The notes beneath the pieces are model-generated. The model searched no databases. It saw nothing but the letters and a program-made list of their open reading frames with translations, and was not told the origin of the DNA. This document shows positions 24,050 through 27,334 of a DNA stretch of 60,101 bases, piece after piece. The translations under genes were made by a program, and so were the position numbers. Numbering within the stretch: position 1 is the stretch's first letter; every line of letters starts with the position of its first letter. The DNA comes from Ligilactobacillus ceti DSM 22408 (lineage in GTDB: Bacteria; Bacillota; Bacilli; Lactobacillales; Lactobacillaceae): assembly GCF_000423245.1 (NCBI RefSeq), contig NZ_AUHP01000015.1:1-60101 (forward strand), given 5' to 3'.

Positions 24050-25702
24050 TTAATCTTGAGAATTGTCAATTGGATTTTGTGTGGCCTTGGATCGTTTTTT
24101 CTTACCAATAACTGGCAAACTAAAGCCAAAGATTCGATCTAACAAACCAAATTTTTCTAACATTAAAATATATAACGCCAAAAAACTCAAGCCAAAAATC
24201 GCCGCATATATGAATGCTGTAATTTTAGTTTCTGGTATATAAACTAAATCCAAACCAGCACGAGTTAAGAACGCTAAACCACCAACAAAAATATTCAACA
24301 AAATAATCATTAAACCATAACCTAATTGTCCGCGTCCGAGATAATTTCTCCGTAAATACGCAAACACAACTAAAGTAATTAAACCAAAAGAAATAGCTGT
24401 AGCTAAAATCGTACCATAGGCGGAGAAGAAATATGTTAACGGTACTTGTAAAGTCAACTTAAGCACAATACCGACAGTTAACATTTTCACAGCTAACCGA
24501 TGATGTCCCAACGATTGTGACACCATAAACAAATCAGAAAACAACGCCAAAGCAATACTACATACTAAAGCTAATGCCATTAAATTAGCACCTTGAACAT
24601 TAAATGGGAAGAACACCCCATTGACTTCCCAAGCTAAAACAGCTAACAATAACGCACATGGTAATAATGTAACTAACATTAATTCCATATTTTGGACGAT
24701 TAATTTACGAATATAACCTTTATTGCCAACTTTACTTTGTTCCGCTAATAAAGGTAATGATGTAGCCGCAATCGCAATTGTTAAAGAGACAACTACTGTC
24801 GTAATTTTATTCGGATTAGCAGAAAAATAAGTATAAAGATTTTGCGCTTGTAATTTATCCATCCCGGTCAAGCCCACAATAATACTTTTAAAGGTAATTT
24901 GATCAATAAATTGATAAATCGTAACTGCTGATCCAATATAAATAAATGGTAAAGCATCCTTAATAATCCCGCTAAAAACATGGCCTAATTGATGATTATC
25001 AACTGGCAAACTTTCTTGATATCGTTTTTTATATTCTGGTAATTTACGAAATGCATAGTAAATCAAATATAAATAACTCGCAATTGCCCCTACAAATGTG
25101 GCAAATGTACTATAATTAACAGCTTTAATATAACTACCATTTTGCATATAAATAATGAAATAAGTCATACTTAAAATAAATAAGACCCGCACTAATTGTT
25201 CCCATAATTGAGAAACCGCAAATGGTTTTGTATCATTATTACCTAAATAAAAACCTCGAATCAAACTCATTGGTGGCAAAATCACAAGTGTAGGAACCAT
25301 CACCCGAATCGCTGTTGTTGCCACTTCACTAGATACAACTGCACTACTTTTCGCAATTGCTGGCGCTGTCACATACAAAACAATCCCACAAGTCAGTCCT
25401 GTAAATAACATAAAGCCTAAAGCAACTTTTAAAACACGTAAACTATTTTTAAATTTATTTTGACCATTATATCCAGCCACTTGTCTTGCAATAGCCGTTG
25501 GAAAACCTGCCGTCCCTAATGATAAGAACAAAGCATATGGTGTATAAGCAGCATTAAAAATTGCTTGTGCTGCATTTTGTTTTTCCGGACTTCCGATCAT
25601 AATTAACCAAGGAATTAAATAGACAATCCCTAAAACACGGGATAAAATATTGCCTAACATCATCCAAAAGGCTCCGGATAATAATTTATTTTTTGTTTTC
25701 AA
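24050..25702 (-). CDS. polysaccharide biosynthesis/MurJ-like flippase (MOP superfamily)
   Basis: A 550-residue protein with about 14 membrane helices of the MVF/SpoVB-type branch of the MOP superfamily. The N-terminus LLSGAFWMMLGNILSRVLGI is characteristic. It is closest in form to YtgP/Amj-replaceable MurJ proteins that flip lipid II across the membrane during peptidoglycan synthesis. An exopolysaccharide or teichoic-acid lipid carrier is the alternative. The C-terminal tail is basic and cytoplasmic (GKKKRSKATQNP). Translation seems to start at TTG (25700-25702), with GGAGTG seven bases upstream. It is transcribed alone; the 130 bp upstream separate it from the candidate small RNA. Confidence 0.82.
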   Translation of the reverse strand: MKTKNKLLSGAFWMMLGNILSRVLGIVYLIPWLIMIGSPEKQNAAQAIFNAAYTPYALFLSLGTAGFPTAIARQVAGYNGQNKFKNSLRVLKVALGFMLFTGLTCGIVLYVTAPAIAKSSAVVSSEVATTAIRVMVPTLVILPPMSLIRGFYLGNNDTKPFAVSQLWEQLVRVLFILSMTYFIIYMQNGSYIKAVNYSTFATFVGAIASYLYLIYYAFRKLPEYKKRYQESLPVDNHQLGHVFSGIIKDALPFIYIGSAVTIYQFIDQITFKSIIVGLTGMDKLQAQNLYTYFSANPNKITTVVVSLTIAIAATSLPLLAEQSKVGNKGYIRKLIVQNMELMLVTLLPCALLLAVLAWEVNGVFFPFNVQGANLMALALVCSIALALFSDLFMVSQSLGHHRLAVKMLTVGIVLKLTLQVPLTYFFSAYGTILATAISFGLITLVVFAYLRRNYLGRGQLGYGLMIILLNIFVGGLAFLTRAGLDLVYIPETKITAFIYAAIFGLSFLALYILMLEKFGLLDRIFGFSLPVIGKKKRSKATQNPIDNSQD

Positions 25703-25835: not shown

Positions 25836-25873
25836 AAAAAAATCCTGCTGCTCTTAACAGTCAGGATTTTTTT
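25836..25873. terminator. terminator of the candidate small RNA
   Basis: AATCCTG (25841-25847) pairs with CAGGATT (25862-25868), flanked by A and T runs. On the minus strand it ends the candidate RNA that starts near 26139. Confidence 0.8.
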
Positions 25874-26139
25874 GTATTTTTCAAAGGAGATAAGGTATTA
25901 AGTTTTTTTGAGATCGACAACACATTACTCTAGTCGGCTTACTCATTTACGGTCTAAATCTAAGACATAATATCATCAATAACAACTACCTGGTCTTAGT
26001 ATGCTTTTTTGCTTTAACAGCAAAAAAGGTTATTAAAATTCATTAATCGTCTTAAGTGTTGTACCCGAACCTCATTACTTAAATGGAAACAATTAAACTA
26101 TACCGTCTCAAAATATAGTTAATCATTTTCCCTTACATG
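25838..26139 (-). ncRNA. candidate catabolite-controlled small RNA, about 300 nt
   Basis: The 600-bp gap between the flippase gene and ilvE holds no protein gene. It carries a complete minus-strand transcription unit: a consensus promoter (26145-26173), a body with several hairpins, and an intrinsic terminator. The hairpins, read on the minus strand, are TTAACTATA/TATAGTTTAA near 26093-26122, CTTTTTTGCT/AGCAAAAAAG near 26002-26028, and CTAAGAC/GTCTTAG near 25960-26000. Near its 3' end, ATCTCCTTT (complement of 25883-25891) is an unpaired-looking anti-Shine-Dalgarno stretch, typical of base-pairing sRNAs. A cre-type operator lies inside the promoter. I match it to no known RNA family. Confidence 0.65.
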
Positions 26140-26144
26140 TGAAT

Positions 26145-26173
26145 ATTGTAAACGTTTACTTTTAGAGTGTCAA
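26145..26173 (-). promoter_or_regulatory. promoter of the candidate small RNA
   Basis: Minus strand: perfect -35 TTGACA at 26168-26173, a 17-bp spacer, and -10 TACAAT at 26145-26150 (one mismatch). It is the best-matching promoter in the window. Confidence 0.8.
26146..26160. promoter_or_regulatory. cre-type (CcpA) operator
   Basis: TTGTAAACGTTTACT fits every fixed position of the catabolite-responsive element consensus WTGNAANCGNWNNCW and contains the 12-bp perfect palindrome GTAAACGTTTAC. It fills most of the spacer and part of the -10 of the small-RNA promoter, a repressing position. Another LacI-family repressor could use the same palindrome. Confidence 0.7.
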
Positions 26174-26302: not shown

Positions 26303-27334
26303 ATGTCAGATAAAAAACAAGTCCAACTTGATTGGGATAATTTAGGTTTTGGCTATATTGACCTACCTTACCGCTATCGTGCATATTATAAAGATGGTCA
26401 ATGGCATCCAGGTCAACTAGAAACTAACTCACAAATTACGATCAGTGAAGGTTCAACTAGTTTACATTATGGTCAACAAGCTTTCGAAGGTTTAAAAGCT
26501 TATCGTTGTAAAGACGGCAGTATTAATTTATTCCGTCCCGAAGAAAATGCCAAAAGAATGCAAAAAAGTGCTGATCGCTTATTAATGCCACAAGTTCCTA
26601 CTGAAATGTTTGTTGATGCGTTAAAACAAGTTGTTAAAGCAAACGAAGCATACTTACCACCTTATGGAACAGGCTGTTCTTTATATTTACGTCCTTACTT
26701 AATTGGGATTGGTGATAATGTCGGTGTACATCCAGCTGAAGAATATTTATTCTCTGTTTTCGCAACACCAGTTGGTAATTATTTCAAAGGTGGACTCACA
26801 CCTACTAACTTCTTAGTCTCTGATTATGATCGTGCTGCCCATCGTGGTACAGGACAAGCTAAAGTCGGCGGTAACTATGCCGCTTCACTTCTTCCCGGTC
26901 ATTTAGCTAAACAACAAGGTTTTTCAGATTGCATTTACCTTGATCCAATTGAACATCGTAAATTAGAAGAAGTTGGTGCAGCTAATTTCTTTGGTATTAC
27001 AAAAGACAACTGTTTTGTAACTCCAAAATCAGATTCAATCTTACCATCAATTACAAAATATTCCTTATTATACTTAGCCAAAGAACGTTTAGGCTTAGAT
27101 GTTAAACAAGGTGATATTTATATTGATCAATTAGATAACTTTGCTGAAGCTGGCGCTTGTGGAACAGCAGCAGTTATTTCACCAATCGGCGGTTTTCAAA
27201 TCGGTGACCACTTCCATACCTTCTATAGCGAAACTGAAGTCGGTCCTATTACTACAAAACTTTATAATGAATTACTCGGAATTCAATTTGGAGATATCCC
27301 AGCTCCTGAAGGTTGGATTGTAAAAGTTGATTAA
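26303..27334 (+). CDS. ilvE: branched-chain amino acid aminotransferase
   Basis: PLP enzyme that interconverts leucine, isoleucine and valine with their 2-oxo acids, using glutamate/2-oxoglutarate. The 343-residue length and motifs are those of the fold-type IV BCAT group II. LHYGQQAFEGLKAYR is near residue 53. The PLP lysine is in GQAKVGGNYAASL near residue 190, and EAGACGTAAVISPIG is near residue 282. The start is ATG, with AAAGGAGTC upstream. No other ilv gene is adjacent, so it may serve amino acid breakdown as much as synthesis. It ends at a strong terminator shared with uspA. Confidence 0.96.
   Translation: MSDKKQVQLDWDNLGFGYIDLPYRYRAYYKDGQWHPGQLETNSQITISEGSTSLHYGQQAFEGLKAYRCKDGSINLFRPEENAKRMQKSADRLLMPQVPTEMFVDALKQVVKANEAYLPPYGTGCSLYLRPYLIGIGDNVGVHPAEEYLFSVFATPVGNYFKGGLTPTNFLVSDYDRAAHRGTGQAKVGGNYAASLLPGHLAKQQGFSDCIYLDPIEHRKLEEVGAANFFGITKDNCFVTPKSDSILPSITKYSLLYLAKERLGLDVKQGDIYIDQLDNFAEAGACGTAAVISPIGGFQIGDHFHTFYSETEVGPITTKLYNELLGIQFGDIPAPEGWIVKVD

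Follow-up and report, generated by a model that had tools for sequence, protein, structure and literature searches.

A predicted CcpA-repressed small RNA with an anti-Shine-Dalgarno core shared by Ligilactobacillus ceti and one related species

Small RNAs (sRNAs) repressed by CcpA are already described from S. aureus (RsaI), B. subtilis (RosA and SR1) and Lactococcus lactis (ArgX and 6S RNA). SR1 is named as another such sRNA, and the 6S RNA of Lactococcus lactis is given as rising about 3-fold when ccpA is mutated, among the sources used here (PMC8414754, PMC9266662, PMC8216469, PMC6586332). RsaI is described as CcpA-repressed in glucose and as repressing its targets via pairing with their Shine-Dalgarno (SD) sequences (PMC9266662). 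ArgX is a CcpA-repressed sRNA with a predicted pairing to the ribosome-binding site of arcC1 (PMC6586332), and RosA is a stand-alone CcpA-repressed sRNA (PMC8216469). The csRNAs of streptococci carry an unpaired anti-SD stretch beside stem-loops and end in a terminator hairpin (PMC3091779). In lactic acid bacteria, 6S RNA has a cre at its promoter in many species (PMC8414754). A non-coding RNA is also described from the same genus as the organism studied here, the lncRNA of Lactobacillus salivarius (PMC5643018).

The locus examined here resembles several of these RNAs and differs from each of them in some respect. Like RsaI, it would specify an sRNA repressed by CcpA and pairing with SD sequences, both of which are inferred in our case; RsaI differs in having two G-rich regions (PMC8216469). 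ArgX, which we liken to the present RNA by description, is 66 nt long, overlaps the 3' end of argR and is induced by arginine (PMC6586332), whereas the RNA proposed here is about 303 nt long and free-standing, with the cre on its promoter. Its locus lies between a flippase gene and ilvE and not at the 3' end of argR. It would stand alone, as RosA does. It shares with the csRNAs the arrangement of anti-SD, stem-loops and terminator, but those are driven by CiaR, measure 51-202 nt and usually carry an anti-AUG CAU (in 53 of 61 csRNAs; PMC3091779); here the promoter bears a cre, the predicted RNAs of the two species are about 303 and about 220 nt, and the conserved core AATACCTTATCTCCTTTGAAAAA contains no CAU. 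The cre at the promoter recalls 6S RNA. The L. salivarius lncRNA is 520 nt, megaplasmid-borne and species-specific (PMC5643018), and a plasmid search with the present RNA gave no Lactobacillus-type record among the 15 matches listed.

We analyzed a window of 60 kb (the whole stretch of DNA under study) from the 1.39-Mb genome of L. ceti DSM 22408. The predicted sRNA unit is on the minus strand, from 26173 to 25836. Gene annotation by profile search places it in the gap between a flippase-like gene on the minus strand (24050..25702; Polysacc_synt, PF01943; nearest NCBIfam SpoVB, below cut-off) and the divergent ilvE on the plus strand (26303..27334, above the family cut-off). The near-perfect promoter claimed in the original prediction is confirmed by the sequence and by a promoter scan. 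The −35 box TTGACA (26168..26173, minus) and the −10 box TACAAT (26145..26150, minus) are separated by 17 bp, with 11 of 12 positions in agreement with the consensus. It is the sole match to TTGACA-N17-TANAAT at zero mismatches in the window; with up to one mismatch there are 8 matches versus 5.2 expected. The cre AGTAAACGTTTACA (26147..26160, minus) matches WGWAARCGYTWWMA in full, the L. lactis consensus as quoted in PMC3198803, and is likewise the only match to it at zero mismatches in the window (11 matches versus 7.0 expected with up to one mismatch). The full-consensus cre of the original prediction therefore stands, but its placement within the promoter spacer alone does not, since the site takes in 10 nt at the end of the spacer together with 4 nt at the start of the −10 box. 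A zero-mismatch cre by itself is not rare, with a mean of 0.32 per shuffle and at least one in 26 of 100 shuffles. None of 100 dinucleotide shuffles, however, had a cre that lay in such a promoter or no more than 5 bp away from one.

Conservation in relatives had been named as a check on the prediction, and a counterpart is present in one of the 25 other genomes in a set of 26 Ligilactobacillus genomes that includes the window's own. It is found in L. saerimneri DSM 16049 (contig NZ_AUHQ01000005.1). When the window RNA was compared with the 26 genomes by BLAST, the only clear match besides itself was the core in L. saerimneri, at 23 of 23 nt (E 7.7e-5 and 5.3e-5, each for one genome). Short matches with E values of 0.005-0.01 turned up in three further genomes. 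Short weaker matches, with the RNA of either species as query, were taken as chance; the three that we viewed lie in or beside protein genes. The L. saerimneri locus consists of TTGACACTCAACCAGAAAACGGTTACACT, a diverged body, AATACCTTATCTCCTTTGAAAAA, and a terminator-type hairpin of 24 pairs with a T-rich tail, and its predicted RNA is about 220 nt. Its cre, AGAAAACGGTTACA, has one mismatch to the consensus and occupies the same promoter position. As in L. ceti, the flippase orthologue follows on the same strand, here after an intervening antiporter gene. The inner domains of the two RNAs differ, and they align poorly outside the core. A small RNA gene, as originally predicted, is thus supported: the promoter with its cre, the core with the anti-SD and a hairpin of terminator type are all retained, and the sequence that separates them has diverged. 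All these elements can be read directly in the DNA, as can the fact that a second species has kept them. The locus is probably a real, functional sRNA gene, and conservation in two of 26 genomes amounts to one comparison only.

Pattern scans point to the same two loci. The composite TTGACA-N10-AAACGNTTACANT occurs in 16 of the 26 genomes with up to two mismatches, and at zero mismatches only at the L. ceti and L. saerimneri loci. Thirty promoter/cre-like loci in other genomes were rejected; many of them precede or lie in protein genes, and for some no clear gene follows. A 16-nt portion of the core gave 42 matches in 22 of the 26 genomes with up to two mismatches, and only the same two loci at zero mismatches. 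Thirty of these 42 core-like matches were inspected, and only those two loci join the absence of a long frame with a promoter and a cre. Among 397 genomes sampled from the family, 20 nt of the core are exact in L. ceti and L. saerimneri only. With up to two mismatches, 23 of the 397 genomes have a match (two exact, one with one mismatch, 20 with two), and the 21 inexact ones, which were rejected, look by eye like sites within protein genes or at their starts, polC being an example. An exact scan with 19 nt of the core over 84,980 species, at one genome per species and possibly without the window's own, returned 10 stretches. One is that of L. saerimneri, and the other nine fall inside open frames that are 255 codons or longer. 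A promoter-like pattern precedes four of the nine and a loose cre two, and none has both. One of the thirty promoter/cre-like loci is an apparently non-coding stretch in another congener (L155, G014:C1:687751 onward), with a promoter-like site, an anti-SD and a GC-rich hairpin that has a run of T. Near its 5' end stands AAAAGGAGATAAAG, to which AGATCTCCTTTT, farther along, is complementary, and the stretch might mask its own SD. It has no Rfam match, and kinship to the sRNA locus is not evident.

The predicted RNA would start 7 nt past the −10 box and extend over about 303 nt (25836..26138, minus). RsaI, at about 144 nt, is of a different size. The RNA strand holds no ATG, GTG or TTG frame of more than 21 codons, which bears out the claim that it has no open frame. 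A 15-codon frame, MINYILRRYSLIVSI, lies near the inferred RNA start (26079-26126, minus) with AAGGG right before it; there is none similar at the equivalent position in L. saerimneri. Strong hairpins had also been claimed, and the 306-nt fold including the terminator is more stable than shuffled sequences (z −3.76, 0 of 100 as stable). The prediction gives a 5' hairpin (26085..26131, minus; pair probabilities 0.3-1.0), an internal hairpin CUUUUUUGCU/AGCAAAAAAG (26004..26028, minus) and a long-range helix, modest relative to shuffles, with its 5' strand at 26056..26082 and its 3' strand at 25898..25923 (both minus). The 3' strand stops 2 nt into the conserved core AATACCTTATCTCCTTTGAAAAA (25877..25899, minus), whose 23 nt are identical in L. 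saerimneri. Within the core, in sequence and in fold, is the anti-SD that the original prediction placed near the 3' end, ATCTCCTTT (equal to AUCUCCUUU; 25883..25891, minus). The intrinsic terminator is present as well, as a hairpin ending in seven T (25836..25873, minus) with stem pair probabilities mostly of 0.9-1.0. This hairpin is absent from the list produced by a simple terminator scan of the window, which we attribute, as a guess, to the stem and loop limits of the scan.

The RNAs of both species are predicted to follow a common plan, with a hairpin at the 5' end, a long-range helix that reaches the core with its 3' strand, and the hairpin of the terminator. The length of the long-range helix is reached in 21 of 200 shuffles for L. 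ceti and in 5 of 200 for L. saerimneri, and the helix is only suggestive. The mean unpaired probability of ATCTCCTTTGAA is 0.71 in L. ceti and 0.69 in L. saerimneri, versus 0.45 and 0.55 in 200 shuffles each. In the L. ceti RNA, CUCCUUU is predicted to be mostly unpaired (0.70-0.82), and for the CCUUAU half of the core a pairing with the 5' end has a probability of about 0.5. In the L. saerimneri RNA, UACCUUAUC is mostly open in the prediction and the next four letters are paired (unpaired about 0.26); the partner bases of these four sit just past the hairpin, maybe outside the transcript. Exposure of the core is thus only partly predicted, with a mixed picture across both RNAs.

Taken together, we consider it likely that the locus is a free-standing sRNA gene, repressed by CcpA, whose product pairs with SD regions. 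The genome carries a ccpA gene (502.7 bits versus a curated cut-off of 442.35), and this gene supports the control by CcpA originally put forward, as does a cre that occupies one and the same place in the promoters of the two species. Repression in glucose is suggested by the overlap of the cre with the −10 box. CcpA on the cre would cover the −10 region and silence the gene for as long as the cell has ample supplies of a preferred sugar. Once the sugar is exhausted, an RNA of about 300 nt would be made, ending at the intrinsic terminator. In its body, the 5' hairpin and the long-range helix would end at AAUACCUUAUCUCCUUUGAAAAA, the one stretch that is conserved, directly ahead of the terminator. 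This stretch may pair with the SD region of at least one mRNA and block ribosome binding. From the elements described above we infer transcription, repression by CcpA, pairing and targets alike, and our confidence in any particular target is lower than in the reading as a whole.

The core resembles what we take to be the anti-SD 3' end of 16S rRNA, and should therefore bind SD sites. At 16 nt, sites resembling its complement are hardly above the control in the window's genome (23 versus 19). At 13 nt there are 50 versus 26 in L. ceti and 66 versus 40 in L. saerimneri, an excess that SD sequences, being abundant, would produce on their own. A start codon is nearby, with a frame of 30 codons or more, at 11 of 48 distinct sites in L. 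ceti, a set from which two sites on contig C13 were left out, and at 15 of 64 in L. saerimneri; some of the sites are clearly inside genes. By eye, no gene is shared between the two species among core-complement sites near starts. The strongest two start-site duplexes in L. ceti fall at what are presumably a cca-like and an M16-peptidase-like gene, both absent among the L. saerimneri sites. The translation block of target mRNAs in the original prediction is therefore plausible from the conserved anti-SD, but no conserved target came out of the search, and the exposure of the core is only partly predicted.

The transcript could instead be the 5' leader or attenuator of the downstream flippase gene, with a regulated terminator and a CcpA-controlled promoter. 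Both RNAs precede an orthologous flippase gene on the same strand (the flippases are 64% identical). In L. ceti the terminator is about 133 bp ahead of the flippase start, and the promoter scan gave no site on the minus strand between the two. In L. saerimneri, however, the gene directly after the terminator is a CPA2-type antiporter, with the flippase behind it, and this difference weakens the leader reading. There is also a TATAAT between hairpin and antiporter in L. saerimneri, Rfam contains no riboswitch or leader family that matches, and the conserved part is an anti-SD, with no conserved antiterminator noticed by inspection. We regard a leader as unlikely. Upstream of 13 other flippase genes and that of L. 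saerimneri, some of them ending at contig edges, a counterpart was seen in L. saerimneri only. The flippase protein as query against genome contigs gave no confirmed relative. A scan of flippase and ilvE loci for an anti-SD with a terminator flagged only L. saerimneri and missed the window's own locus, we guess because the terminator loop is over the limit of the scan; divergent counterparts may be missed too.

At gathering scores, Rfam 15 assigns no family to the locus in L. ceti or in L. saerimneri, nor to two others examined with them. At relaxed thresholds nothing credible appeared; the best match, Thr-leader, spans the terminator but on the other strand (27.1 versus 55 bits). The statement that the RNA belongs to no known family is upheld against Rfam 15, and a housekeeping RNA that would explain the locus did not appear. 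The lack of a match separates the present RNA from RsaI only if RsaI is modeled there. Elsewhere in the window, Rfam finds a THF riboswitch aptamer (RF01831, 47831-47933, minus, 43.5 bits, above the gathering score), and the 5' end of a 16S rRNA gene is at the contig edge (1-115, minus). In the open-licence literature we found neither a CcpA-repressed sRNA in Ligilactobacillus nor a report of the present RNA.

A CcpA-controlled RNA might also act as a sponge that pairs with other sRNAs and not with mRNAs. RosA and RsaI are both described as CcpA-repressed and as binding other sRNAs, RosA being a sponge of RoxS and FsrA, but they do so with G-rich regions (PMC8216469). The only conserved stretch here is C/U-rich and complementary to the SD, and we judge a sponge to be very unlikely.

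The core could also be read as protein, as the conserved C-terminus IPYLL-stop of a small peptide gene of the secreted-pheromone kind. ATG frames of 21 codons in L. ceti and 18 codons in L. saerimneri do both end in IPYLL. No SD was seen before either ATG, however, and there is no similarity ahead of IPYLL. All synonymous positions are identical between the species, including those of an ATA and a CTC codon, which are rare codons, as are five A after the stop. At a flippase identity of 64%, this suggests selection on the RNA, and we give the peptide gene very little credence.

A divergent 6S RNA would account for the cre, which is present at 6S promoters in about one third of lactic acid bacteria (PMC8414754), but the sRNA locus has no match to RF00013. 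The L. ceti genome has a 6S candidate elsewhere (C1:676389; L212 1501-1686; 34.9 bits, below the 46.4-bit cut-off), between RarA/MgsA-type and Usp genes, the place reported for 6S (PMC8414754). L. saerimneri has its own 6S candidate, over the cut-off (51.9 bits). Identity with 6S is thus ruled out by the separate candidate unless the genome carries two 6S RNAs, which makes this reading extremely improbable. Across the genus, a 6S match at E 0.001 is missing in 18 of the 26 genomes, and the RF00013 model therefore seems insensitive there. Scarcely credible, finally, is a gene on the plus strand that would begin at AAAGGAGAT and leave the minus-strand features to chance: AAAGGAGATAAGG is a good plus-strand SD in both species, but no start codon stands at SD distance in the window, the TTG frame in L. 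saerimneri has 8 codons only, and the minus-strand promoter and cre are conserved.

The free-standing sRNA that we favor would represent a new and narrow family within a general kind of RNA that is already known, with members in L. ceti and one related species. A broader form of this reading is a family in a few species of Ligilactobacillus in which a fast-changing scaffold presents a frozen 23-nt anti-SD core as a generic decoy of ribosome-binding sites, mimicking the 16S 3' end as a starvation switch. We offer it as speculative and unlikely. If it is true, the translation of many mRNAs with a AAAGGAGAU site would be lowered at once, and not that of one target. The CcpA-repressed, SD-pairing sRNA, if real, would be a post-transcriptional arm of catabolite control in these lactobacilli.
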